Source of the DNA: Ampullaceana balthica
Taxonomy: Eukaryota; Mollusca; Gastropoda; Lymnaeidae
DNA: 64,000 bases
NCBI GenBank assembly: GCA_944989445.1
Contig: CALYLW010000741.1
Location: forward strand, 124,001-188,000
Direction: 5' to 3'
Position numbers and translations under genes: made by a program. Of the stretch, positions 2,062 through 47,600 are shown piece after piece (position 1 is the stretch's first letter; each line of letters begins with the position of its first letter). The notes under the pieces are model-generated. The model searched no databases, had not been told where the DNA came from, and saw only the letters and a program-made list of their open reading frames with translations.

Positions 2062-2206
2062 CTACCCTCTCCGAGCGACTGGATATAGATGACACGCGCA
2101 CCGTGACAACACTTGTATGGGGATGTAGTTCGTCACTCTCGGTTGTTTTGTAACGAAGATGTGTGCGAATATGTTTGAGACGCCTTGTTCACACTCAGAC
2201 CTGTAC
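2062..2206 (-). CDS. NT-A exon 4: second half of cystine knot
   Basis: The acceptor CCAATAG leads into YRSECEQGVSNIFAHIF and then TNYIPIQVLSRCAC, ending PVARRG and TAG. It holds knot cysteine 4 and the terminal CxC. NT-B exon 4 shares SEC-Q, SNI-AH-FV, KQPRVT and IPIQV. A possible AATAAA poly(A) signal (minus strand) lies at 1879-1884, about 180 bp past the stop. Confidence 0.82.
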
Positions 2207-5200
2207 CTATTGGTAGAAAGTAATGTTCTTGAACAAACAAAACTTATTTCGACGTAAATTACAAACGTGAATAGAAAGCATACGCAGCAAAGATATTTAT
2301 GTTAGGGCTGGTACTGATTTTAAAAAATGTTCGATTAATCGTGAAACATTTTAATCGATTAATTATATATTTATAACGCATATATAGATCCCGTTAAGTG
2401 GAAATTCATTAGCCTATTATCAATCGTATTATTATTTCGAGAAATAATAAAGTCGCTGTAATTCCATGGCTCTTAAATTTTGTGACGTAACACAGCAAAT
2501 TCGTTCTGCTAGGTAAGAAATAAGAAAGAAAAACCTTTTTGTTACGTATGCACGTCTAAATAAATAATAATAATACGATTGAAAAGTATGTAAGTAACAA
2601 TAAAAAAAACTGTAAAAAAAAGTTTTTGACTATAAAGCCTTTATATAGGAGACATAACTAAAAGAATGTTGATTATAATACGCAGCGCAAGACAATTAAA
2701 AAATCCAAAATTTTAGCTATGTCTCGTAAAACATGTTTAATATAATGCGAACAGATCGGAAACATATTTTTAAAAAGTATCGTCAATACAATACGCACCG
2801 CAAAGCGCGACAGGAAAGATTGTTTAATATAATACGCACCACAACACTCTAGCATAAAAATAACATGCTACATAGAGATAAATTGAGATAATCTAAAAAT
2901 TCAATATTTTAATATCATCACATTCGATCGATCCGAAATTTTGATAGATCATTTTTATTATCGCCACGAGTCTGGCTGCAAAATTTCAGCTCGCCAGCAT
3001 AATAGAAAGTGGGTTTAAAAATCGATCGAAAGTGTTTTCGGCAATCAAGCAAGCAGACACCATTAGTTAATATAAAGGATTTAATTTTTAAAAACCCGTA
3101 AAAAAAATAAGTTTTGTGAGTATAAATCATTTATATACGAGACATAACTAAGAGAATGTTCATTATAATACGCAGCGCAACACAATCCCAAAATTCAAAC
3201 TTTCAGTTATGTCTCGTAAAAGATGTTTAATATAATGCGCACCGATCGGGAATATATTTTTAAAAAGTATTGTCAACATAATACGCACCACGATACTCTA
3301 GAACAAAAATTAACATGCTACAAAGAGATAAATAGAGATAATCTAAAAATTCATTAATTTAATTACTGTATATTCGATCCATTTGAAATTTTGATCGATC
3401 ATTTTTATCATAACCACAAGTCTACTTGCAAAATTTCAGCTCGCCACCATACAGGGAAGTGGATTAAAAATTGATCCAAAGTTTTTTTCGGCACGCAAGC
3501 TAGCAGTTACGAGTTAAAATAAAGGATTTTTAAAAAAACATAAAATAATAATACATTGGAGAAAAACCATATTAGAAATATCTTCGCAAATTTTAATCGA
3601 ATTTTAATCAATCAAGTTAATTTTAATCGATTACATTTATAACGATTAACCGGTTAATTAATCGTTGATTTCCGCAGCCCTAAGGGGCCGTCCATAAAGT
3701 ACGTCACGCTCCGAAGGGGGGGTGTAAGAAAGTGTGACACTTTGTGAAGGGGGGGGGGTCAGGCCATGTGTGATGTCACACATTTAATATTTTTAAATAT
3801 TTTTTTCTAAATTATTTATATTTTTAGTAGAATTTAAATAGCTTTAAAAATAATTTTCTAAAATTTTGTGAAACATTAGAATTAGTTTTATGTCAAAATA
3901 GCATGAAATGCGTATCTCCTGAATGTGTTGTTCATAAATCTGAATTGGACTGATATCAAAGGATCAGGAATGGCATGACAATCTTGTTCGCACCAGCCAA
4001 TATTTCACTCAAATTGTTAAATATCAGGACATGAAATGTTGCGACAAAGCACGAAGATCATATTTCAACGTTTTACCTTCAAAATTCTTCCGTCTCCAAT
4101 TCCAATCAACCAAACAAACGATGGACTCAAAGCTTCAGAAAGAGCAGAATGAAAATTCTAATAAATTTCCTTTTGTGTTTGTAGCAAAAACTCTCAAATT
4201 TGATGAAATTATGCCAAGATCAACAGGAGTTTTCAAAGTACAACCATTTGATTACCAGCCTATTTAATCGACTTTGCAAAGTATGTCACATATATTTTGT
4301 CTCACAAACAATCTTGAAGAAACATACAGGACATCACAGAGCTCGGGCTCAGGAGAATGTGCCCACCCAATCTGTTCAAGAATCAACTCAGATAAAACGC
4401 ATCCGTCCTTTGAGAATCGCTTCTAGAAGGCAAAGAGGGCCCATTGCAGTTATTGCCAGACGAGAAAATGAACATACAGAGGCTGTTGAGTAGCTAGATG
4501 AGGACGAGTTGATCTGTCTGCAATTATCCTTCCAGGAAACGATGATGGTGAAAGATTGTTGATGCCAATCGTAGCTATGGATGAACACTTCACTTCACCA
4601 TAGTAAAATGATGTCCAGTGAATATTTTTAAATTAAACATAATTCACAGGACCATAATAAACAGATTCAATAAAGCACAAGAGTTGGTCACATAATTTAT
4701 CAATCTAGTCTTTTTTTCATACTGTTTTGTTTCCTTTTCATTAATCGCTAATCTACTTCTTATCCTATGTCAATAGAATGCATAATCGGAAGATTATCTA
4801 AAACTTGACCTCACCCATTGTAAATAAAAAGGTAGCAGATAAATGATGTGTATTATATAATTGTCAAGTCTAATTCTTGCATTTTTTTATTTCAAAATCG
4901 ATCTAGATGGAGTTACTGTTTCATTGAATAACTGTGACAATTGTTGACAATTAACTTTTCTACTATTATAGTCATTTTAATAATCTGATAGTTCTTTTAA
5001 GTGGGAGTGTACGGGATTTCGGCTCCAGCTCCGGCAAATCTGAAATCCGGCTATTTTTTTAAAATCCGGCTCCAGCTTCGGCAGGATTTCACTTCATAAA
5101 TCCGGCTGGTCGGTAGATCCATAATTCATATATATATTCATAATGGCTCCGGGAAAAACGGAATCCGGCCATTTAAACAAATCTAATTCCGGTTCCAGCC

Positions 5201-5924
5201 GGATTTCACTTCAAAAATCCGGCAAAGTTCAGCTCTGGCAGGATTTTAAAATTTTGAATCCGGTACATCCCTACTTTTAAGTGGAAATTTTATATTTAAT
5301 AGAGTTTAATAGTGAAGTGTATTTTAAGTATTAAATTAAATATTTTAATTAGGTGTTAATTAAAAATATTTTTCAAAAGTGTGACGTACTTTAGGGAGGG
5401 GTCCCAATATTTGTGACAATTTTGTGACATGGGGAGGGGGGGCCAAACATGGTCAAAAATAGCGTGACGAGAGGAGATTTTGTCGTTATCTCTCTCTGTC
5501 ATTCGTGGTCGAGTGGAAAAACAAAAGTAAAAAATGACTACTTTCCGTGATGCCATCAAGCTGAAATTTTGCACATAGACTCGTGTCACCTATCAATGCA
5601 TTGTATCAAAATTTCAGATCGATTGATCAAACGTACCGTAATTAAATTAATGCCTTTTTAGTTTAACTCTATATAACTATATGTAGCGGCGTGCTTTTGT
5701 TTACTTTTCACGCAGAGTTCAGTACAGCTATCGGTGACCAGACCATTCCCCTCCCCCCACCGGTTTTACAGCAACGGGGAGTTAAGGCAGTTTCAGTCTG
5801 TAAATGTTTGTCGCGTTTGAACATGATTAATACTTTAAGCTATGTCTCATATATAAGGCATTTATATTTTAAAAAATGTTTTAGGGGGCATTTAATTAAA
5901 TCCCTTATATTAACATCACAGTCT

Positions 5925-5982
<58 letters not shown>

Positions 5983-6001
5983 TCTCTCTCTCTCTCTCTC
6001 T

Positions 6002-6098
<97 letters not shown>

Positions 6099-6132
6099 TC
6101 TCACTCTCTCTATCTCTCTATCTATCTATCTA

Positions 6133-6177
<45 letters not shown>

Positions 6178-6576
6178 TGGGCGGGCGGAAAAACAGAGTA
6201 AAGAAATCACTTCCAGTGATGATATCGAGCTGAAATTTGCACATGGACTCGTGTCACCTAACTCACCTAACAATGCATTGTTTCGAAATTTCAGGTCTAT
6301 CGAATGTACCACAATTAAATTAATGCATTTATATTTTATCTCTATATAACTATATGTAGCGGTCTGCTATTGTTTACATTCACGTGTCACTTGAGTTCAC
6401 GTCAGCCATCGATGACAACATCTCGTGTTTTACACCAAGAGCAGTTCAGTTAGTTTCATGCTGTAAATGTTTGTTGTGTTTGAACATAATCAACATTTTT
6501 AGTTATGTCTCAAATAGAAGGGATTTATAGTCAAAAAGTTTATTTTTATTAAATCCTTTATATTAACTTCACCGCC

Positions 6577-6641
<65 letters not shown>

Positions 6642-9600
6642 TGTCTCTCTGTCTATCTCTCTCTCTCTGTCTGTCGTTCGTCGTCGGGCGGGCGGAAAAA
6701 CAAAAGTAAAAAATGACCCACTTCCCGTGATGCCATCGAGCTGAATTTGGCACATAGACGTGTCACCTAACAATGCATCGTATCAAAATTTCAGATCGAT
6801 CGAACGTACCGTAATTAAATTAATGCATTTTTAGTTTATCTCTATACGGCATATGTAATTCAATTTCACAGTTTGTTATTGTTTTTTTTTCACGTGACAG
6901 TTCAGTTTGCGCCTTGACGCAACATGTCGATGTACCGGCGTGCTTTTGTTTACATTTTACGTGTCACACTGAGCTCGGTCCAGCGATCGGTGACCAGACC
7001 TTTCCCCTCTCCCATCCCCCACCAAGGGGTTATAAAACAAAGGAGAGTTAAGACAGATTCAGTCTGTAAATGTTTGTCGCGTTTGTACATAATAAATACT
7101 GTTACTTATGTCTCATATATAAGGGATTTATAGTCAAAAACTTTGTTTTTACGGGTTTGTTTTATTATTAAATCCCTTATATTAACTTCGAAATCTTGTT
7201 TTAATTCTTGTTTTATTACGGGGTTGTTTAATTATTAGGTCCCGACTACTTCCCCAGAAACAGCCACCCCTCGTACATCCAAATAAAATTTAAAAAACGC
7301 GTTTGTTATTGTAAACTCGAATTACACTACAAAATAATTTAGCTTTCACGCCACTGCATGAAACTGACATGGAAGTGTTAACCCCACGACACGCCTGGGA
7401 CGCTGTTCGGCACTCCACAACATAAAACCACTGCCTGAAAGTGTCCTGCACCAGCTCCACCAGTTGTTCGTTGTTGTTATAAGCATGGGTCAAGTTGACG
7501 AAACGGGCATTCACCGGACAGTCAAAGCACCTGTCTGACATCAGCTGCCTCTGGGATAATGATAGAACGATGACAGTGTTGGGTGTCGTGAGAGAAGGGG
7601 TGAACAAAAGCAAAATGAAATGGCAATACAAGATGAAATATAATATATTCTCAACCCGTGGAGCCCACTTTGACTTGGATATCCCTTTATTTGTTTCTTT
7701 GGGATTTTGTGTGTGTTTGCGTGTGTGGAAAGTCTTCTTCTTCTTCTTCTCTTCTTCGTTCTCAATTTGAGTTTTGCGTGCCGACAAGTGGCCCGTTGTC
7801 TCCGACTTCAGCCTGCTGTTTTTTCTGGATGTGCTTCCACTCGACCACTGTATCCCCTGCAAGTCTTCTAAATCTAAATATTCAAAATCTAACTCGATTG
7901 AATATAATTCTGGTCCACACTAAAATCTTGTGCTAGCGCAACGGAGGCCCAACCGCAGCTCTCGAGCCCGCATGCGGCTCTTCTGTGCTCACATTGCGGC
8001 TCATGTACAATCAATGAAAGATATGTGACAAGGATTACTTGAAGATTTCCAAGCAAGGCTTAATGACCCATAGTGCTCCAATGCGGCTGTCAACAATTGT
8101 TATATATTTTTAAATGGCTCTCAGTTACTACAGGTCTGGCCACCCCTCTTCTAATGTGTAGTATGACATAGTCAGGGGATCTGGATATATCTATATCTAT
8201 AGAGAAGAAATTGTTTCTAAATATGTCATCTGTTTTAGTAGATAGGGCCATCCGCAAATAAAGACACGTAACTTTACCCCCTCTTTACCCCCTCCCCAAT
8301 GGCAGAGATAGTAACAAAAATTGACACCCCCCACCCCCACATTTCATCTGACCTTCAAAAATAATGTTACAAACTTATTTACCCACTCTCTCCTCTTTAA
8401 AAAAAGAAGTCTCCACAAAAATCACTTCGTCTACTATTGTCCTTCATTAACAGTAAACAATTCATAAAAAAGTGTATCGAATTACGTCACTTGTGTCAGA
8501 GGCAAATCTCTAGCACAAGAGTTCTAGCCTAGGGGAAAGCATCGCTTTTGAGGCGGAAAAAAAGACCCTAGATACTATACGGAGGGGTAAGGTGGGTATA
8601 CAAGGTGTTTGCCATGCACTAAGGTTATTTCCTAATGAATCCACGAGTTTATTTTGTTTTTGTTTTTTTAATGTGCGGTTTGTTTGCTTTGAAGTTTGGG
8701 GGACGACATTGCGATACTAATTAGACATGGTTTGGTGTTTTTGAGAAGTTCATGGGTGATTTGCTTTACTTCAGTACCACACACGCCTTAGTTACGACTA
8801 ATAAATAGGGACAGTTTGTGACAGCTGTAGTGATGGTTTGTTACAAATGTAGTGACAGTTTGTAACAGATGTATTGACAGTGTGTGACAGATGTAGTGAC
8901 AGTTTGTGACAGATGTAATGACAGTTTGCGACAAATGTAGTGACAGTTTGTGACATATGTCGTGACAGTTTGTGACAGATGTAGAGGGTAGAAATAGCTT
9001 TCCTATATTCTTTGGTCGAGATCATTATTCGTCTTTTTTTTCCAGGGTTACTTTTGTCAGGGCTCAACCGTCAGCCGACATTTTGACAAGTACATTTTTT
9101 CGGATGATTTTTGTGTCTGAATTCATGCCATAAGAAGTAAGATGAAATGATATCATTGAGTTATTTTACAGTGCAATTTTTTTTCAAAAATGTTACTTTT
9201 TAGGTGACTCCCCCCCCTCCCCCCCCTCACCAAACATTCCTGTTGAACATTATCACAAAAATCTTCCCACCTCCCTTGAAATTCATGACGCCATTAATGA
9301 ATGGCCCCTCATATACCAAAAGTTGATGGGAAATAATTCTGTGTAAATTAAATCACAGATGATAATGTTTGGAGTAAGTCATTATTGGTATTTTAAGGGC
9401 GCATATATTGATTTTTTAAAAAAAAATAACAAATTCCCAAGTTGGACACTGGTAAAACTTTTTTATCAAGCTAAATGTCCTTTTTTTTAAATTTAAACAT
9501 TTTTAATTACTTGTTCGTATGCACTTAGACACAATATATATATGTTGAATTTTGTACTCATATTTTTAAAAAGTAATATTAATATAATTAGAGTGTGCAT

Positions 9601-12600
9601 ATTGATTCATGATTTCTTTAGAAAAATAAGGTACGGCATAGAAAAGGGGAAAATACAGATACCACAATTTTATGATCTGATTAATGTGTCTCTAATGTCA
9701 ATGAAAAGTGTTTATCGCACAGGATAACCATTTGGGTGTTTAAATTGGTATTGTTGGAGTTGGTAACATCAGATATTTACAAACCTAACTTAAACGTTTG
9801 GTCAAGATTACAGACTCACTTTCCTAACATCAACATTGAATAGATCCTCGGCCTCGACCTCAGCAGACTCAAATCCAGATTGTCCGATGATGTCTCGTCT
9901 CTTGATCTCTGATTGCATAGACGTGAAATCCTCCTCAGCTCTTGCCCTATTTAAATGCGTTGTTGGGGCATCAAGGTCTGGTTGTTCAGAAATGGTATCT
10001 GCAAATAGATTTGATAATAAGATTTTAAATTTGAATTGTATGTAACGGGTGGTTGCCCGCGATTCAAATGTTTAAGTTTTTTATATTTTTATAATGTTAT
10101 TGTAGTTGACAGCAAATATTTGTTTTAGGGTGACGATGATGCAAGCAAGGGCCGTTCATAAAGTACGTCAGGTTCCCAGGAAGGTCAAGGTGAGTAACTT
10201 TTATAAGACGGGTGGGGCTGGGAGGTGGTACTACATGTGACGTCACACGTTGTGTTCAGGGGCGGATTAAGACTGCACGGGGCCCCTGGCTGCAATTCAA
10301 ACTGGGGCCCTATCCAGCCAGTGTACCTTTAGATAAAATTATTGCTAGCAGCTAATATAAGACTGTAACTTGTAAATATTCATTCAAAATGAATATTCAT
10401 GAAAAAACCGAATTCTAAGAAATAACTTTTTGCCGATATCCTAAAATTGAGTGTAAAAGACAATTTATAAAATTAAAAAACACATGAAAAAAAACCTCAT
10501 ACGCCACCCGGGGATCGAACCCACCACCGCTTGCACCATGAGCCTTAGTACTTCACATCCGGCCACGAGAGCTCATTTGCAGTTGTGAATTTAAAATATA
10601 TATATAATATTCTTTAATAATTTCTGTTATTGAGCCTATCAAATCAGGTTTTTTTGACTGCTAAGACTATCGTGTGGTAAAAGAGATCATTTTAATAGAT
10701 GAGATTTTATTAATTTATCATATTTTCGGCAATTCATGTATACAGTTGTCCACATTTATTATAAAATATGCTAAGTTTGGGGGCCCTAAATCATCGGGGG
10801 CCCCCTGGCTTTAGCCCGTTCAGCTTAATCCGCCATAGGTACAGTTTACTTTTGTGTTAGTTGATCAAATGTTATATCTCACATTAAATCCCACAATCGA
10901 TCACAATAAATATAAATAAAACTTAGAGTTCTGAGTCCCCTGTGTGACTACTTAGTTTGTGACTAAAAAATTATTTTCTGCTTTTTCGTGCGAGTCTCTA
11001 CATTCCTCACTGCAGCTTGGCCTCATCTTTTAAAAAAAAAGGTTTTTGTTCATTTTATTATAGTTAGCAATAAGAAATGAATAAAACTATGGGTATAAGA
11101 CTAGTATAAGTTACAATTGTTCATTACAAAAAAAAGCCATTACAATTAGTTTCCATTCAATATTTTTGGGAGCACGCAAATCGTAGCATATTAGTATAGT
11201 TTTATTTACTAACCTAAAATGTATACTAGGAACTAGTTACATACAAAGTATAATTATATGTAAATTTCCAGCACGGCAGTAGCACAATTTTCAGTTATTG
11301 TCCGTGGCTAATACACAAGTGCTTCAAATGGTCATTGAACCTCAAAAGGTTGAGAACCACGGCCCTAAAGCAACTATCAACTTGAAAATATGTTGTTTTT
11401 TAACGAAATTTCCACTGGGAATTGCGTTTATATATTTGAAATGTCCGGCCTGTCTTTTCGAGCTTTGAACAGCAAATCCCCTGAACCATACCAGATAGAG
11501 GAAAAGGTCTTTGCAAATGTGCTAAGGAGGTCCCATCGATGTGCACGCGCCAAAAAAATTACCGAAAGGTTTACTCGATTTCCTGGAAAATCCAAAAAAC
11601 CCTAAACAATATCAGTACTTTGTCAATTTTTCGCCAACCATAACATCTATCGGGTTGAAAAAAACGCCAAACGATAGCTAATAATATTTAGAGCAATGTT
11701 GGAGAAGGAATTTTTGAAAAAATCTCTTTTGGTTCGACTCCCGTAATTTTAGCAGCAATTTGTAGACAGCAATTGTTTTTAAATCCTTTATATTAACTTG
11801 TGTCTGTTTGGTTGATTGCTTGCTTGTTTGTCGAAAACACTTTGGATTGATTTTTAACCCACTTCCTCGTAAGCTAGCGGGATGAAATTTTGCAGGCAGT
11901 TTTGTGCCTATGATAAAAACGTCGTATCAAAATTTCAGATCGATCGCATGTACCGTCATTAAATTATTGAATTTTTAGATTATTTTATTTATCTCTATGT
12001 ATCATGTTATTATTTTAGATAGAGTGTCGTGGTGCGTATTATATTGAACAACCTTTCTGTCGCGCAATAACGCGCGTATTTTATTGACAACACTTTTTAT
12101 AAACATATTCCTGATCGGTGCGCATTATATTAAACATGTTTTACGATACATCTACAATTTTGTATTTTTGGATGGTCTTGCGCTGCGTATTATAATGAAC
12201 ATTCTTTTAGTTACTTCTCGTACATAAAGGATTTTTTCGTCAAAAACTTGTTTTTTACGGGTTTATTTTTTTTTAAGTTTCACAATTATTGATTTGAAAT
12301 TACTTTTAATGTACTCTAGAATGATAGTTAATGGGGTTTCCCCGCTTTGTGAATGCTAATGTTGCGCGGTGCGCATTATATTGACACATTCTTGGTGTGA
12401 CTCTAGAATGATTTCCCTTGAATAACAAAATCGGAAATTCTCTGGTGGAAATTGCGTTTAAATACTCATTCGAGTTTTTATTCCTTGTTTTTTGGATCAC
12501 TGCGTCATTTTTAGCTGTGAGAAACACCCCATTAGAATAGATCGTATGATATACAATGAAAAAAAATTATCAAGCATTAATGAAAACGACGTTTCCGAGA

Positions 12601-13015
12601 AAGTGGCACTTGGACTTTCAGAAGACGACCTAAAATTCCGTCACTTTCAATCAAAACCAAAATTAATCCTTCAGTTAAAAATTCCTTTCATTCAAAATCC
12701 TTGCAAATGTATTGGATCAAATGGTTGTCTTGGTGCCGAGATGAAAATACGATTGCACACCAGAAATTATTAAACATGGATGAAAAAAAAATGTATGTCT
12801 TGACATAACCATGAGTACGTTGGCACATTATGGGTCTCTTTTAAAATAGTTTACTGTAATCCGTATTTTATCAAGTTACTTGATGAGATATGAAGTCTTG
12901 TATTTCTGTCATCGTTTTTTTTTACATTATTAAACTGTTAAATAATATTCATTTACTTACACGAATCAGCCATCGTCTTTGTTATGACAGCAAACATCAA
13001 CATTAGTTGAAGCAT
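2062..13015 (-). CDS. NT-A: secreted neurotrophin/Spatzle-like cystine-knot growth factor, 4 coding exons
   Basis: Exons on the minus strand are 12961-13015, 9820-9998, 7369-7550 and 2062-2206 (561 bp, 186 aa plus stop). All junctions have GT/AG ends and compatible phases (1, 0, 2). The product starts with a hydrophobic signal peptide (MLQLMLMFAV...), then an acidic prodomain. A basic site VRKR is formed across the exon 2/3 junction, followed by the knot domain. Six cysteines match the NGF knot: FDC, VVEC, QAC, SEC and CAC. The third-to-fourth cysteine spacing is 12 residues as in NGF, and the last two form CxC. WFYVVEC and CRGVNT resemble neurotrophin FFETKC and CRGID. A sequon NLT lies in the first finger. 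By family knowledge it would be a secreted, processed dimer acting on a Trk- or Toll-type receptor. Neurotrophin is favoured over Spatzle because of the C-R/E-G-I/V-D/N-T motif. The family is inferred by eye, without a database search. It is paralogous to NT-B at 18.8-47 kb. Confidence 0.82.
2305..3680. mobile_element. TA-flanked MITE (GGGCTGGTACTG ends) split by a repeat dimer
   Basis: Begins TA/GGGCTGGTACTGATTTT and ends CCGCAGCCC/TA, with AATCGATTAAT-rich subterminal inverted repeats. The relative at 49991-50468 lacks the insertion; aligning the two shows that about 940 bp (2609-3545) was inserted near its 3' third. TA target and no coding capacity suggest a Tc/mariner-class non-autonomous element. 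It lies in NT-A intron 3. Confidence 0.6.
2609..3545 (+). repeat. Tandem dimer of dispersed repeat R1
   Basis: Two head-to-tail copies (about 2609-3094 and 3095-3545) of a roughly 490-bp repeat. It starts with an ACCCGTAAAAA/TTTTTGACTATAAATCC block, has TATAATACGCAGCGCAA and GAAATTTTGATCGATC in the middle, and ends TTAATATAAAGGATTT. The two copies share the junction ACCCGTAAAAA. Other copies are at 11775-12272 (reverse), 20362-20865 and 63425-63935. Confidence 0.75.
3684..5470 (+). mobile_element. TIR transposon with GGGGCCGTCC ends, carrying a zinc-finger ORF; right terminus lost
   Basis: Left terminus GGGGCCGTCCATAAAGTACG after a TAA, then G-rich and (in mirror) C-rich arms around GTGACACTTTGTG. 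The interior matches, in opposite orientation, the complete copy at 47601-48976. Here the right terminus stops after AGCGTGACG and is replaced by the (CT)n repeat cluster. Superfamily is unassigned: 3-bp TWA flanks recall PIF/Harbinger, but I see no transposase. A run of AATCCGGCTCCAGC-like short repeats lies at 5010-5270. Confidence 0.65.
3903..4588 (+). pseudogene. Transposon-borne C2H2 zinc-finger protein, frameshifted
   Basis: Opens MKCVSPECVVHKSELD, then a stop and a frameshift; the frame resumes at 4200 and reads to 4493. A classical C-x2-C-x12-H-x3-H finger (CKVCHIYFVSQTILKKHTGHH region) lies at 4275-4337, followed by a basic stretch IKRIRPLRIASRRQRGPIAV and an acidic tail (ENEHTEAVE, LDEDEL). 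The second copy (48190-48742, minus) has the same N-terminus and basic region but lacks the finger segment. Function unknown; it may be a DNA-binding accessory protein of the element. Confidence 0.5.
5474..7200 (-). repeat. Tandem trimer of R2 units, each with an internal (CT)n tract
   Basis: Three head-to-tail units (about 5474-5895 truncated, 5896-6548, 6549-7200). On the plus strand each runs AAATCC(C)TTATATTAAC, a CT microsatellite, GGGCGGGCGGAAAAACA, a block with GAAATTTCAGATCGATC, and ends TCATATATAAGGGATTTATAG. The ends resemble those of R1, so R1 and R2 are probably one superfamily. Head-to-tail units with a microsatellite at a fixed internal site recall Helitron-like non-autonomous elements. 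Leucine/serine-repeat ORFs here are artefacts. Confidence 0.7.
5925..6174. repeat. (CT)n microsatellite, about 250 bp
   Basis: Nearly pure CT with rare TA, GT and TATC interruptions; gives spurious ORFs of 141-180 codons. A second tract is at 6579-6668. Confidence 0.95.
7369..7550 (-). CDS. NT-A exon 3: first half of cystine knot
   Basis: The acceptor TTATCCCAG is followed by 182 bp in phase 0 to phase 2, with donor GTCAGT. It encodes RQLMSDRCFDCPVNARF, the sequon NLT, then QWFYVVECRTASQACRGVNT. It carries knot cysteines 1 to 3 plus one extra cysteine (DRC). Length and phases are identical to NT-B exon 3 (19541-19722), which it resembles along its whole length. Confidence 0.82.
7933..8147 (-). 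mobile_element. hAT-like MITE, GCGGCTC family
   Basis: About 215 bp with the family ends GGCCCAACCGCAGCTC and, on the right, AGGTCTGGCCACCCC. Interior phrases CATGCGGCTCTTCTGTGCTC and GAGCCATT match the copy at 42584-42790 in reverse. No clear target duplication. Confidence 0.6.
8245..9308. mobile_element. Degenerate GGGGCCGTCC-type TIR element
   Basis: Left GGGCCATCCGCAAATAAAG followed by C-rich arms, right CCCCCCCTC... ATTAATGAATGGCCCC. The ends are imperfect versions of the family. The interior contains the minisatellite at 8806-8990 and otherwise AT-rich sequence. Confidence 0.4.
8806..8990. repeat. Minisatellite, about 22-bp units
   Basis: About eight units of GTGACAGTTTGTGACAGATG with point differences. 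The 89-codon minus ORF (ICHKLSLHLSHTVN-like) is produced by the repeat. Confidence 0.85.
9820..9998 (-). CDS. NT-A exon 2: prodomain
   Basis: The acceptor TATTTGCAG precedes TISEQPDLDAPT, and the exon runs 179 bp to a clean GTGAGT donor in phase 0. The residues are acidic and polar (RARAEEDF, ESAEVEAEDLF) without cysteines, as expected of a cleaved propeptide. It ends VRK; the first codon of the next exon is Arg, so a basic R-K-R processing site forms at the junction. Confidence 0.72.
10147..10252. mobile_element. GGGGCCGTCC element fragment (left end)
   Basis: AGGGCCGTTCATAAAGTACG followed by a G-rich arm and TGTGACGTCACACG; truncated where the hAT MITE at 10257 begins. Confidence 0.45.
10257..10838. 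mobile_element. hAT-like MITE with CAGGGGCGGATTAA ends
   Basis: Left CAGGGGCGGATTAAGACTG, right TTAATCCGCCATAG, with inner GGGGCCC-rich inverted segments at 10278-10312 and 10790-10812. Contains a tRNA-like segment at 10502-10572 on the minus strand. Target duplication weak. Confidence 0.5.
10502..10572 (-). repeat. tRNA-like SINE head or tRNA pseudogene
   Basis: The minus strand has A-box-like TGGCCGGATG and a B-box GGTTCGATCCC with the expected spacing. The acceptor arms do not pair convincingly, so it is more likely a SINE head than a working tRNA. Confidence 0.4.
11396..11725. repeat. Intron-1 block shared with NT-B
   Basis: About 330 bp closely similar to 23318-23636 in the same orientation (shared: ATTGCGTTTATA, CATACCAGATAGAGG, CCATAACATCTATCGGGTTG, AATAGCTAATAATATTTAG). 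Both copies lie between exons 1 and 2 of the two paralogous genes. Either intron sequence retained since gene duplication or a two-copy mobile repeat; a scrap near 12440-12480 favours a repeat. Confidence 0.6.
11775..12272 (-). repeat. Dispersed repeat R1, reverse copy
   Basis: Full-length R1 in reverse: begins AAATCCTTTATATTAACT and ends TTGTTTTTTACGGGTTT, with all internal landmarks. The 12280-12960 interval has AT-rich sequence with a 93-codon ORF that I do not recognise. Confidence 0.7.
12961..13015 (-). CDS. NT-A exon 1: signal peptide
   Basis: This short exon encodes MLQLMLMFAVITKTMADS plus one base, then a strong donor GTAAGT (phase 1). An in-frame upstream ATG at 13069 would add 18 residues (MSIYPATAPS...). 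I chose 13015 because it gives a compact signal peptide like that of NT-B, but the start is uncertain. The split T joins AT of exon 2 to give Tyr. Confidence 0.7.
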
Positions 13016-13153
13016 CGCGCGGCTCAACAGTAAACCGACAGATGGCGCTGTGGCGGGATAAATGGACATTTCTTTCTGCACACAAAAAAACTACTTCTAC
13101 GATCGCTATTCCTGTGGTATTTATTGTAGTGGTATCGCCCAGACCGAACCCCC

Positions 13154-13187
13154 TGGCGTCGACAAACCTCGCCCAAAGTCTCGCGGT
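13154..13187 (-). promoter_or_regulatory. Conserved upstream block of NT-A
   Basis: About 140-170 bp upstream of the NT-A start, the minus strand reads ACCGCGAGACTTT, then GCGAGGTT and GACGCCA. NT-B has the same at 47097-47131. TACAATAAA follows closely in both. Likely promoter or 5'UTR conserved between paralogues. Confidence 0.5.
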
Positions 13188-13859
13188 ATGAAATATTACT
13201 GCTGACAATGATCTCGTCGCAGTCTGTGGCGTGCGGCCAAGAAATCAAAATTGTCCCCGAATTCCACCAAACCAATGTTGTTTCAAATACATGTATTAAG
13301 CGGTCTTGTTGTTATTGTTGTTTTAACTACTGAAATTAGAAAAAAAAATAATCTTGAGGAAAAATTATCGTTGGCGCCTATGACTCATTCATCAAATATT
13401 CCTTGCATTTCAATTTTTATCAAAAAGCTTATCACTTGAAAAAGGATTTTTTAAATATTTACGTTCGGACTGCAAGAAAACAACGTTACTATTGGATGGG
13501 CGCCTGCATTGTGTCATCCCCCCCCTACACACACACGCACAAATAAATAAATAAAAAACATTCTAAGTTTAGAGGTAATATGGATACACCATACAACTTT
13601 TGGGCATTTACGTATCAAGCCCCACCCCTTTTTCCCCACCTTAGATGTGATGGTGTCGTTAAGCCAGTGATAAAGGCAAGCTATAAACTCTATTCGCTCT
13701 AAGGCCCCGTTTCACCAACAGTTTTAGAAGTTTCTTCTTGACATCCATGGAGATTACGGAGATGTTGTGTATCATAATGCTATAAGATAGCTCAGTCGGG
13801 GGATAGCACTTCAGCGCCTCTACACACTTAAATAAGAAACGAGGCTATTCATCTTGGAC

Positions 13860-14400
13860 ATCTTGGAAAATAAGGGACAACCAATTCCAGAACTATCTGA
13901 TCCTGCTTGGCTAGTAGATTTTGATTTTTAGTTGATGTGACAAGACATCTAAACTTTCTTTACACAAATCTTCAAGGGCGAACAGCAGTGGTAAACCAAT
14001 TATATTCACAAATCAATGCCTTTGGAAACAAGCTGCACATTATTTTTCAAAGGCAACTGTCTCAAATGCAGACTAATATCACACATTTCGCCCAACTACA
14101 GGAAATCATTACAAGTTTTCCCAGAAAGAAACTGCAATGAGCATAGGCAGAGGTAAGTTGCAGATGTCATATCCATAGCTCATGATGAATTTGAAAGACG
14201 CTTTCCGGATTTAGCAACTATTGAAAGGGAAATCATTTTTTTTTGGTCTTCACCTTTCTCTTTGGACGCCGATGTTGCTCCAGGCAATCTGCAACTGGAA
14301 CTCAAGGCGTTTCAAAGTGCTGCTGAATGCCACAGCAGACAACAGCTTTTTCTAATTGCCTTTTTACTGTCTGCTGGATTATGACAGATTCCAAGAAATT
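13860..14400 (+). pseudogene. Decayed hAT-class transposase, GTF2IRD2/ZBED-like
   Basis: Several frames together read PAWLVDF, TRHLNFLYTNLQGRTAVVNQ, HFAQLQEI, DEFERRFPDL and APGNLQLELKAFQS. These are characteristic pieces of the domesticated/transposon family with the WL.D..FL.DIT.HLN.LN..LQG signature. At least three frame changes and stops; non-functional. The region 13290-13860 holds nothing further that I recognise. Confidence 0.6.
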
Positions 14401-14406
14401 CTGAAT

Positions 14407-14515
14407 TGACGTCATATTTCTTAAACACCCCCCCCCTAACCTTCGTCACCCATCGTCACAAAAGTTTGACCCCCCCCCCTCAAACCAGGTGAGTGACGTC
14501 ATTTATGGACGGCCC
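14407..14515. mobile_element. GGGGCCGTCC MITE fragment (right end)
   Basis: TGACGTCATATTTCTTAAACAC, C-rich arms with CGTCACAAAAG, then GACGTCATTTATGGACGGCCCC. Only the right terminus is present. Confidence 0.55.
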
Positions 14516-14957
14516 CATATTCGTCATTCTTACTGAACCTGCTAATAGCCATATCTCTGTCAGCAGTTTTTAAAATTGAAAATATTTCGGATAATTTAAA
14601 TATTTTTAACATTGGAATTTTAAGCTATGGGCCAATAAGAGGATATAATTTGTAAAAAAATAAAATTTAATACAAATATTTTAACAATTTATGGATTCGT
14701 CTACTTTGCGTTAGAAGCTGGCTGCTAAAACAATAACAAGGCGCATTCTTGAGATAATAAATGGCGTGCCTTAATCTATCATAACATCTTTGAATAAAGA
14801 AAGAAAAGAAAACTATTATTATAAATAGAAGGGGTAATTTATTTTGATATTACCTGGAACATCATATTAAAATTAAAATCTATGGTATTTTCTAGTTAAC
14901 GATTAAGTATATCAAGTTAATAATATGGTATATTCCCGTAAACAATATGGTTTACAT

Positions 14958-15278
14958 CAAGGGTCGCGAAACCATGGCTCGCGACTCGCGAGACAGATGA
15001 GGCTCTATTGATGGCTGCATCTGGCTCTCAGACACGCAACGTTTATTCAGACTCATTTGACCTACATATTAAATGCATTTTTTTTTAAACAGCATAACAA
15101 TGTTATTAAAAAAAGAATTCAAAAACATAAGTATTGTACTTTTAGTGTTGAAATTACACAAAAAGCTCACATTTACATTGAATTTTAGTTTTAAACATGA
15201 TGTATGGGTCTCACAGAATTACTTTTCAAAATATGTGGTGTTTATGGCTCGCTCAGACAAAAAGATTCCCGACCCCTG
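14958..15278. mobile_element. Intact hAT-like MITE, 321 bp, perfect 8-bp target duplication
   Basis: Begins CAAGGGTCGCGAAACC and ends GATTCCCGACCCCTG, flanked by perfect duplications gtttacat (14950-14957 and 15279-15286). The perfect duplication suggests relatively recent insertion. Confidence 0.8.
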
Positions 15279-15286
15279 GTTTACAT

Positions 15287-16025
15287 TATCGTAATCTTTA
15301 TTTATTTTTTTTAACAAAAAAAAATGAATTTAGATGAGACTCAATTATCCTACATAAGGGCAATTTATGGCTATGCATTTATTACACTTAATCCTGAAGG
15401 AAAAAGAAAATGATAAAAAGAAATGAGTTTCTATCCAAAGACCGATCATTTGTTTTCAATAATTAGAGATATTAAACGTTTGCTTGGATTTGTTACAAAT
15501 ATTTTTACTTGAGGCTTAATTGATTTCTCCGATAGTTTCTCTTTTTCGGTGGAACTGCGTTAGTTTTCTATATTTCGGATACTTGAGATACAAAATACTT
15601 ACGCAGGTGTTGTGTAATGACGTATTGCAATAATAAACGAAATCTGGCCATCAAAAAGGAAAACATTAGTTTGAGTTTTTTTCCCTGTGAATATTTATAG
15701 GCGCTATAATCTGTTCCTTGTGTGGAACTAAAAGTCTTGTTATTTTGTCATCAAAGAAGTATTAAATTTCACTAAAATGTAAACATATTGTTAAAGGACA
15801 TATTTATTTATTTTTAATTATTTATTTATTTCATATGAATATTTAGTGTAGCAAATTTCAATTGACTTTTCCCCTAACGAGAATATTTTAGTGCTTTAGT
15901 ATAAAAAAAATAAATTTAAAAAATTTAAAAAAGCAGGTCTTCCAAAGTACACAATTGGATTTATGCAATTATGCTAATTTTCTTCGCTCTGATTGTTTGC
16001 TATTTCATTTCAACATTTTCTCACC
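15287..16025. other. AT-rich intergenic stretch
   Basis: Between the 15 kb MITE and the GCGGCTC-type element; no coding sequence, no repeat structure seen. Confidence 0.6.
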
Positions 16026-16027
16026 TT

Positions 16028-16990
16028 CAGCAGAATGCGGCTCTTCTTTACTCTCGTTGCGGCTCACGAGCAATTTAAGAAATTAAACGTTTTCGTTTGA
16101 AATATTTCATATATCCCAAAAAAATAAAAAGTTAAAAATGAATCTTGACTAAAGCAAAGGATTAAAAGTAATATGGGCTTGATTTAAAATTTAAAATTTG
16201 AAGGGAGCGATTGGTTTTTTATTTGTTGCTGATGTAAACTGTTAAGTTTCTCTTCTGGTTCCGTTAAAACTCCGCTTTTAAAAGTATTAATCATTACTGT
16301 CAGTCCTTTTATATTTAGAAACTTATTATTTTAAACTTTCAATAAAAAATGGCAACAAGTTGCAGGAAATGAAAATATAAAATCCTGTTCCGCTTTTCTC
16401 ATCAATACATTCATAATATACGTAATCAAAGATGGTTTCCAGCTTCCCATGAACATTGTTAATGATTGATATGGAAATCTTCTGCTGCTGAAATGGGGCT
16501 GTTAAAGTTACAGGAAGATCAGGCTTTAGCTCGTGGCAGCAGTGTAATATCCTCATCTTAAGACAGCTAATTGCTGGTTTACATCCTATTTCGGTACAAC
16601 CTACTGCTGTGAACCTTTGTACTCCCCAAAGAAATTCATAAAATCAAAGCATCGAGCAGTAACAAGCAACAAGCATCCGACAGAACTTCTTCGCACGACA
16701 ACTACTAGCTAACGACCATAGTTAAGCAAACTTATTAGCTCAGAACTTCTCAGCAGAATCATAACTCACTATACTCATGAGTCAATATGCTGTGTGTTTC
16801 TATTCATAAATTTTACATATTTAAATATTTGTTCATTGTTTAGCTGCAATTTTTCTTAAACATGCGGTTAGGGTTAAATTTAATTTTTTAAACTGAAATT
16901 TTTAAATCATTAAATTGCGGCTCTCAACAATTTTTTAAAAATATTTTTAAAATTGCTCTCAATTACTAAAGGTCTGACCACCCCGGTCTA
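16028..16990 (-). mobile_element. Longer GCGGCTC-family hAT-like element
   Basis: Left has GAATGCGGCTCTTCTTTACTC, right has GCGGCTCTCAACAATT and ACTAAAGGTCTGACCACCCC, both family landmarks, about 0.96 kb apart. The interior holds a 76-codon minus ORF (16326-16556) beginning MRILHCCHELKPDLPVTLTA, which is not low-complexity; it may be a remnant of an internal gene. Unrecognised. Confidence 0.45.
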
Positions 16991-17477
16991 GATTCTAGAG
17001 CTTCATTACATTGTGATACGTATCCAACACGCTTATTATTTAATTGTTGATTCATCATTTGCTGCATCAATTCTAACACCAAGAATTAATTTGTCATCGA
17101 TGATTCTCGACCCCGTCCCCAGTTTGCTGATGAATTGATTACATAACATTGATTGGAAACTTCTATTTATTCCCTTAAAAGGAACAAAATATTTATTTAT
17201 TTTTAAAATAAAAATGATTTTGTTCAGCTTCACACTTATTTTGCATTCATTATCCAACTTATAATGGAGCAACTTTCATGTCATTTACCAACATTTCAGT
17301 AAATAAACGATTACGGATTCATTTTTAGATTAACGAAATTAAAGATTAATCAATAATTATGAATTTGTCTTCTGGGTTTAAAAGGAATGCATACATTTTT
17401 GACTTGCGAATGAAAACATTCTTATCGAATATTATTTCACTTTTCAACATCATAAGTCCCGAATGACTGAAACGACC

Positions 17478-18045
17478 TTATGATTGGTTAAATTCTATAT
17501 TATGATTGGTGAAATTCTATATCATGATTGGTTAAATTATATATTATGATTGGTTAAATTCTATATTATGATTGGTTAAATTATATATTATGGTTGGTTA
17601 AATTATATATTATGATTGGTTAAATTCTATATTATGATTGGTGAAATTCTATATTATGATTGGTGAAATTCTATATCATGATTGGTTAAATTATATATTA
17701 TGATTGGTTAAATTCTATATTATGATTGGTTAAATTATATATTATGGTTGGTTAAATTATATATTATGATTGGTTAAATTCTATATTATGATTGGTGAAA
17801 TTCTATATCATGATTGGTTAAATTATATATTATGATTGGTTAAATTCTATATTATGATTGGTTAAATTATATATTATGGTTGGTTAAATTATATATTATG
17901 ATTGGTTAAATTCTATATTATGGTTGGTTAAATTCTATATTATGGTTGGTTAAATTATATATTATGATTGGTTAAATTCTATATTATGATTGGTTAAATT
18001 CTATATTATGATTGGTTAAATTCTATATTATGATTGGTTAACTTT
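17478..18045. repeat. 22-bp minisatellite with higher-order structure
   Basis: About 25 units of TATGATTGGTTAAATTCTAT with variants ATATAT, GGTTGG and GGTGAA. The same sequence of variants recurs every several units, so amplification involved multi-unit blocks. It contains many ATTGG/CCAAT motifs. Lies between NT-A and NT-B. Confidence 0.9.
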
Positions 18046-18786
18046 GGTCTGGTCGTGCTACTCCAATCACCAACTAACAAGGATGTAAAATCTCGTGATG
18101 GTCTTTTAGACTAAATAAATACTCTTGAATATTACAAGAACAAACGAGAGAAACAAATGTTTCATTGAGTGTATTTTTAGCATTAACTTATTCAACAAAA
18201 AATTGATAAGTACGTTATTTTTTATTTCAATTTTGCTGTTAGTGTCATGTGTTTAAAAACGTATGTGTGCATATAGCTCTTAACAGCATAAAAAACCTAA
18301 GAATAATCAATACACATAATTTGCAATGTCTGTCATGACTGTCTGTCCGTGACGCTACTAATTTTAGAAAGCAGCGCACTAAATTACTGCACCAGAAATA
18401 ACTCTTTTCGAACGTTCCGTATAAAATTTTGCAATATGAAAATCAATGAATAAAATAAAAATAAATAAAAGTTATGTATTACATTAATTTTTATTCTGAT
18501 GTGGATAATCTCGGACTGGTTAGATTTCAGCTGAAGTGTATTTATTTTGAAACCTTCCGTCGTTTTTGACGGGTGATACAGTAGTACATATTTATATTTC
18601 TTAAACATTTTCAAACAAACATTGTTTAAGCCAATCCACATAGAAATAAAACAACCACACACACACAAATTCAAATCAACTAACAGTTTGAAAACTGTGT
18701 GTGTTCTTTTTTATTACTGTGTATGTACTGTTTGCAATTTTCATATTTGAGTTGTCATTGTCCGAAATAAAGTTGGAGTCATTCAT
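18046..18786. other. Downstream flank of NT-B
   Basis: AT-rich sequence past the NT-B stop. A 96-codon minus ORF (18384-18674) is lysine/phenylalanine/isoleucine-rich and looks like chance. Possible 3'UTR. Confidence 0.5.
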
Positions 18787-46978
<28,192 letters not shown>

Positions 46979-47096
46979 TGTTGCGGAGGGTGGTGATGTA
47001 ACAGCTTTAATGGTCAAGTCTTCCGGAATCAAAGAGATGCGCCCAAGAGAAGCAAGTGCCACTGTGACTATTCCATCGCCTTTTATTGTAGGATCG

Positions 47097-47131
47097 TGGT
47101 GTCTGCCAACCTCGCTGTAAAGTCTCGCGGT
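47097..47131 (-). promoter_or_regulatory. Conserved upstream block of NT-B
   Basis: Minus strand ACCGCGAGACTTT, AGCGAGGTT, GACACCA, then CCTACAATAAA and GGAATAG; matches the NT-A block at 13154-13187 at a similar distance (about 120-150 bp) from the start codon. Confidence 0.5.
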
Positions 47132-47600
47132 CTGATAGGCTACTGGTGACACTGACGTCAACGCCATTTCCGTTGAAAGATTGATACTCGCATGTGATAC
47201 ACGTGGTCCCAGAAATTATGTGTTTCAAAGTTTTAAATTTGTTAATTGTGGTTGCTGTGACATGGCAATGTGGGGCGGGGGCAGTAAAGTTGCATTTGTC
47301 AGCAAGTTGTGGTTGGATTTGTTTTAGTGGTGGAGTAGCTATAATCTCTGCTGCTTCTATGTTTGTTTTCCTTTGAACAGTGAACTAAACTCGCCCCGCT
47401 GTCTTCGGCTATTGTGCTGCACGGTGCGATAGGGGACGACTTGGTGCCATATAATTATAATTAATGGTAAATTACGGGCTGTGAATTATTATTGCCATGG
47501 TTTCTGTTCCATAATTCAACTTTCAGCTCATGCCACAACTCCCCCTTTTTTTTTCTTCGTATCGCCGTCAATACATTTTAGAAAGTAGCATCGCTAGTTA

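Follow-up and report, generated by a model that had tools for sequence, protein, structure and literature searches.

Gene organization of the window

The window, that is, the whole 64-kb stretch of DNA analysed here, corresponds to positions 124001-188000 of contig C741 (306,236 bp) in a genome of 1.097 Gb, and carries on its minus strand two intact four-exon genes, named A and B (Table 1). All eight exons that a sequence-only reading had placed at this locus were found again at the same coordinates, on the same strand and grouped into the same two genes, and recomputation returned the common four-exon plan with intron phases 1-0-2 in both genes and GT-AG borders in 6/6 introns. That reading had also described an identical 182-bp third exon, which is correct for its length but not for its sequence, which differs between A and B; the NLT sequon that it considered common to the two is present in both. 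Six knot cysteines do occur at one spacing in A and B, but each mature protein has seven cysteines, and the basic cleavage site, clear in A (KRQRRR), is weaker in B, where VRKR spans the exon 2/3 junction.

The mature parts of A and B are 55% identical (59/107 positions) and the propeptides 17% (10/58). The identity of the mature parts is not due to chance, and the divergence is too great for an assembly duplicate; a reading of A and B as haplotype copies was dropped for this high divergence. The start of gene B is probably the in-frame ATG at 13069, upstream of that at 13015, since the peptide encoded upstream aligns with the N-termini of two Lymnaea proteins (see below). In gene A, a 51-bp tandem repeat that expanded from the 3' end of exon 3 raises the splice donors of this exon to five, at 19540, 19489, 19438 (AAG/GTAAGA), 19387 and 19337; use of a later donor would read into an in-frame TGA, and a stop after SR is seen in the translation.

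The first intron of gene A contains a 52-bp satellite (36.5 copies, 98% alike; window 40709-42606) and, on the minus strand at window 38927-39628, a frame that by eye resembles a non-LTR reverse transcriptase. On the plus strand at window 26312-26371, Rfam scores a tRNA at 35.4 bits (gathering 29) where ARAGORN makes no call; this may be a SINE.

Table 1. Genes of the cluster on contig C741 and features of genes A and B
Feature	Position in window	Position on C741	Strand	Length and content
Gene A	46978-18787	170978-142787	-	194 residues
Gene B	13069 or 13015 to 2062	137069-126062	-	204 residues from the ATG at 13069; 186 from the ATG at 13015
Gene C		110040-99192	-	194 residues
Gene D		82811-70701	-	230 residues
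Gene E		56407-52963	-	151 residues
Gene A upstream block	47034..47155		-	TATA-like AATAAAAGGCG; common to B, D and E, weak in C
Gene A exon 1	46909..46978		-	70 bp; start codon and predicted signal peptide
Gene A exon 2	22994..23184		-	191 bp; predicted propeptide
Gene A exon 3	19541..19722		-	182 bp; basic site KRQRRR, knot cysteines 1-3, NLT sequon
51-bp tandem repeat	19322..19571		-	4.9 copies; overlaps the 3' end of gene A exon 3
Gene A exon 4	18787..18928		-	142 bp; knot cysteines 4-6 and stop
Gene B upstream block	13105..13211		-	homologous to the gene A block
Gene B exon 1	12961..13069		-	109 bp from the upstream ATG; 55 bp from the ATG at 13015
Gene B exon 2	9820..9998		-	179 bp; predicted propeptide
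Gene B exon 3	7369..7550		-	182 bp; knot cysteines 1-3, NLT sequon
Gene B exon 4	2062..2206		-	145 bp; knot cysteines 4-6 and stop

A cluster of five genes on one contig

The two genes had been taken for a tandem pair, a number that proved wrong: tblastn together with an exon-profile scan located five such genes (A-E) on the contig, and the apparent pair results from the window edge, as C, D and E sit downstream on the same contig and the same strand. These three additional genes of the same type were retrieved by tblastn of contig C741 with A, B and two Lymnaea proteins as queries. The five genes form one row in a single orientation that spans 118 kb, with all reading frames open and free of internal stops, GT-AG borders in 15/15 introns and phases 1-0-2 in every gene; exon 3 measures 182 bp in A-D and 185 bp in E.

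The exon-profile scan covered 11,260 stop-to-stop frames of the contig, each of at least 18 residues. Exon 3 gave five matches (E 3.6e-30 or better; next 0.64) and exon 4 likewise five (E 4.2e-27 or better; next 0.064, a plus-strand frame within the third intron of gene B), values that flatter since the profiles were built from the same five genes, so that the gap to the sixth match is what counts. The exon 1 profile found A-D, with exon 1 of gene E at E 26, and the exon 2 profile found A-C. Splice sites, phase and position served to assign exon 2 in D and E, and exons 1-2 of these two genes are the least certain part of the models.

When the whole genome was searched with mature A, the 10 matches corresponded to exons 3 and 4 of the five cluster genes; mature D recovered these again, with an eleventh match on contig C565 (E 0.056). 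No further cluster-type gene appeared in these genome searches with mature A and D, which could miss divergent copies. The Pfam NGF profile gave no match in the genome at E 0.001, a result that is uninformative as the profile cannot cross introns and was silent in 14 control genomes too. The neighbours of the cluster on the contig, all on the minus strand, include a frame that by eye resembles leucyl-tRNA synthetase (195984-195544; no Pfam match), a SAM-domain protein (265652-263757) and a trypsin (9873-8929).

Knot architecture and family assignment

The spacing of the knot cysteines is 36-7-12-31-2 in the five genes and in the Lymnaea protein P0001, and every cluster gene has the six knot cysteines in order, a C3-C4 spacing of 12 and the C5-x-C6 end. 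Extra cysteines occur directly before C3 in A (likewise in P0001), three residues before C1 in B and three after C2 in E, while gene C carries two, in the signal peptide and in the C-terminal tail, and gene D contains exactly six cysteines. In Spaetzle an extra cysteine bridges the subunits, and by analogy the seventh cysteine of A, B and E could do the same. The NLT sequon is present in A-D and P0001 and absent from E. Signal peptide, propeptide and basic site were judged by eye on the gene models, the basic site before the knot being clear in A, C and E and weaker in B and D. At the position of Arg103 of NGF, gene C and the C565 gene carry Arg, and the other four cluster genes and P0001 carry Gln; on account of this Arg, gene C is predicted to be the most Trk-like member, and the Gln of A, B, D and E is a point against the neurotrophin reading. 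A structure model of P0001 reached a pLDDT of 39.5 (alignment of 6 rows), too low for use.

The Pfam cut-off is 27 bits for NGF (PF00243) and likewise for Spaetzle (PF16077). The NGF profile scored 26.6 bits in A, 26.9 in B, 24.0 in C, 32.6 in D, 21.4 in E and 26.7 in P0001, so that the cut-off was passed by D only, A and B being short of it by under half a bit and C, E and P0001 below it. The Spaetzle profile scored 18.1 bits in A, 24.8 in B, 20.1 in C and 26.0 in D, with no score listed for E or P0001; none of the five cluster genes reached the cut-off of 27 for this Pfam profile. The description of the proteins as neurotrophin-like is thus upheld by NGF scores above those of Spaetzle in 5/5 genes and by the profile matches in PDB, and qualified by the four of five genes that lie under the NGF cut-off. 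A better score for another knot family such as Spaetzle, named in the sequence-only reading as evidence against it, was looked for, and NGF came out ahead in each of the five genes. In B and D the Spaetzle score comes close to the NGF score, which also counts against the neurotrophin reading.

In PDB, the best sequence match was BDNF for A (E 0.0037) and beta-NGF for B (E 0.0063). A profile that combined A-E with both Lymnaea proteins retrieved 20 PDB sequences up to E 10; 18 of them are vertebrate neurotrophins (best BDNF, E 2.1e-7), and the remaining two are Steely1 (0.89) and a hexatoxin (0.8). Spaetzle is absent from these 20 matches of the family profile, although the library holds one, the chain AAEL013433-PA, which we recognise as mosquito Spaetzle. 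NCBIfam gave no match on P0001, and a tree of A-E and P0001 (110 columns, with long branches for C and E) gave no resolved branching order.

A separate piece of a knot gene lies on contig C565 (464166-464588, plus strand; L040 167-589), with the whole knot in one exon, a spacing of 37-9-13-31-2 and one cysteine directly before C1. It passes both cut-offs, with 40.7 bits for Spaetzle and 30.7 for NGF. Judged by its sequence, this is a gene type different from the cluster; it may represent either a Spaetzle or the canonical neurotrophin of molluscs. In a tree it fell with the vertebrate neurotrophins (96/95), and this placement was not relied on because its branch measures 7.88.

Divergence of the copies and upstream regions

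Knot identity among the genes is 42-66%, and that of the propeptide is much less. According to the Nei-Gojobori method, knot dN is 0.24-0.62 between gene pairs and knot dS 1.05-2.58 in the nine pairs with an estimate, being saturated for D-E; dS is near saturation, so that dN/dS ratios are rough. The dN of signal and propeptide exceeds that of the knot in 10/10 gene pairs and, on these alignments, the mature domain is changing more slowly than the propeptide.

A block located at about 55-195 bp from the ATG, which in gene A carries the TATA-like AATAAAAGGCGATGGAATAG, was detected when 600 bp of upstream sequence were compared (A-B, E 1.6e-7; A-D, 4.6e-8; A-E, 5.6e-7), and the upstream region of gene C fits it weakly. 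Full CRE 8-mers are found at -182 in A (about window 47160) and at -183 in C (about contig 110223); they are no more than a lead, as the contig contains 43 of these 8-mers, the two sites fail to align with each other and chance is possible.

Relatives in Lymnaea and a candidate receptor

A search of 5.8 billion proteins (E up to 10) returned as its only matches two unnamed proteins of Lymnaea stagnalis (12 and 1,218 candidates), P0001 with 208 aa and P0002, partial, with 134 aa. On the basis of these two matches the host is taken to be a gastropod close to the pond snails. The search with B gave no match (28 candidates) although the mature parts of B and P0001 are 56% identical, which indicates that this protein search misses true relatives. 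P0001 is like A in its sequence (56% identity), its knot spacing and the CC before C3, and A is the cluster copy most like it. The propeptide of P0002 is nearest to that of P0001 (41/64, vs 27/63 for A and 14/59 for B), and the Lymnaea pair is therefore probably a separate duplication; P0002 as an orthologue of B was a candidate dropped for its P0001-like propeptide. The two proteins probably share one contig, since the longest contig given for each is 471,858 bases long. Lymnaea differs from the present genome in that two proteins were found, one of them partial, and this search found no relative specially close to B-E.

The kinase domain of human TrkB was used as query for receptors and gave 108 matches in the genome, as expected for kinases. 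Contig C536 contains four Trk-like kinase exons (55, 81, 70 and 43% identity) in which VIGEGAFGRVF, HRDLATRNC, SRDVYTTDYYR and a terminal DPVYIDIIA before the stop were read. These motifs are as in TrkB (DVYSTDYYR; PVYLDILG). Matches on C142 and C162 outscore C536 owing to their longer exons, and one on C1006 carries VYTNDYYR. A passage on Lottia and Capitella Trk leads to the expectation of (S/T)(S/T)DYYR together with a C-terminal PLC tyrosine; the motif is printed there without the Tyr that follows Val (PMC2772990). The genome encodes at least one good Trk candidate, that on C536.

Interpretation

The finding is real and larger than first stated, namely a five-gene cluster. On balance we hold it probable that A-E are five divergent gastropod genes of the neurotrophin superfamily arranged as a tandem cluster, with the first two in the window, and the best reading would be a divergent gastropod neurotrophin subfamily that expanded in tandem. 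Each gene would produce a secreted pro-protein, composed of signal peptide, propeptide and basic cleavage site, which would give rise to a cystine-knot dimer with chains of about 105-115 residues, and the dimers would act on Trk-type receptor kinases. Serial tandem duplication, with the promoter carried along, may have given rise to the copies, which may then have come to differ in expression or in the receptors they prefer.

Spaetzle-type ligands of a lophotrochozoan branch, acting on Toll receptors, for example in immunity, would explain why the Spaetzle profile scores 18-26 bits in A-D, why the C2-C3 spacing of 7 differs from that of vertebrate neurotrophins and what the seventh cysteine of A, B and E could do if it bridges subunits as in Spaetzle; another knot gene of the genome (C565) does score higher for Spaetzle than for NGF. 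We consider this origin unlikely, as the NGF score is the higher one in all five cluster genes, the C3-C4 spacing of 12 is that of NGF, BDNF and NT-3, and Spaetzle is missing from the 20 PDB profile matches though a mosquito Spaetzle was recognised in the library. Reproductive and albumen proteins often form fast-changing tandem arrays, and neurotrophin relatives recruited to such a non-neural secreted role could account for the tandem array with its strong divergence in knot and, above all, propeptide, and for a PDB match named ovulation-inducing factor, which belongs to the NGF family. Knot dN is nevertheless below dS in 9/10 pairs (those with a dS estimate), which gives no overall sign of positive selection, and this recruitment seems improbable to us. 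It is very improbable that some copies, A first, no longer make protein through the multiplied exon 3 donor, a later one of which leads to an in-frame TGA: the five donors in the 51-bp repeat of A (19540 to 19337) and the stop after SR visible in its translation agree with such a loss, but the reading frames of all five genes are open, and none of the copies is closer to Lymnaea P0001 than A.

The preferred reading of a divergent neurotrophin cluster can be extended, in a version that we hold less likely than not, to an independent gastropod multi-ligand neurotrophin code, in which five clustered ligands of common promoter ancestry would be served by one Trk and perhaps also by p75 or Toll, and the relocated extra cysteines of A, B and E would allow covalent homo- or heterodimers that vertebrate neurotrophins lack. 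If this is true, the five ligands and the separate Spaetzle/NGF-type gene would exceed the four of vertebrates. Memory and nerve repair are studied in pond snails as models; should these animals have several ligands, reasoning based on a single ligand would have to be reviewed, and ligand-receptor co-evolution could be tested in identified neurons.

Comparison with known systems

The cluster is like vertebrate NGF, BDNF, NT-3 and NT-4 in its predicted pro-protein plan, the C-x-G-I-D motif (A and D) and the C-x-C end. In NGF, BDNF and NT-3, C1-C2 measures 43-45, C2-C3 10, C3-C4 12 and C4-C5 28-29; the cluster shares the C3-C4 spacing of 12 and differs in C1-C2 (36), C2-C3 (7) and C4-C5 (31). 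The Spaetzle family (PF16077) comprises secreted cystine-knot pro-proteins, as predicted for the cluster, and its profile scores 18-26 bits in A-D, yet stays below NGF in 5/5 genes. The Spaetzle-like gene of this genome is that on C565 (40.7 bits), unlike the NGF-leaning cluster. Vertebrate neurotrophin precursors are described as encoded in one major exon in a passage of PMC2772990, whereas the snail knot is split by an intron. The single Daphnia gene Dappu-NT, for which six coding exons with the knot over four are predicted in the same source (PMC2772990), resembles the cluster in that it is a protostome neurotrophin whose coding sequence lies in several exons and whose knot is interrupted by introns, and differs from it by six coding exons instead of four, a knot over four exons instead of two, and one gene instead of five.

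Two types of sea-urchin neurotrophin and a Lottia knot are described, and no Spaetzle is said to have been recovered from lophotrochozoans, in passages of PMC2772990, a reported lack on which the C565 gene bears. One ancestral bilaterian neurotrophin gene with later diversification in vertebrates is favoured in a passage of PMC7535936. A figure legend of PMC4812194 gives expansion as likely only in the vertebrate lineage, while elsewhere that paper lists two acorn-worm neurotrophin genes and allows duplication and divergence in other lineages as possible. A five-gene snail cluster would be a clear invertebrate expansion of neurotrophins, counter to the stated vertebrate-only pattern. Among the open papers listed in literature searches, no title or abstract dealt with a molluscan neurotrophin cluster, a scope outside which most subscription journals lie, so that this is weak evidence of absence.

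The Aplysia neurotrophin ApNT was reportedly described by Kassabov in 2013. In passages of PMC6758832, ApNT is a gastropod neurotrophin that acts with a Trk and is reported to drive the consolidation of synaptic facilitation, and a single neurotrophin and a single Trk gene are reported for Aplysia. As far as that account goes, the likeness to the present cluster is that of a gastropod neurotrophin, and the difference is that of a single gene vs the five found here.
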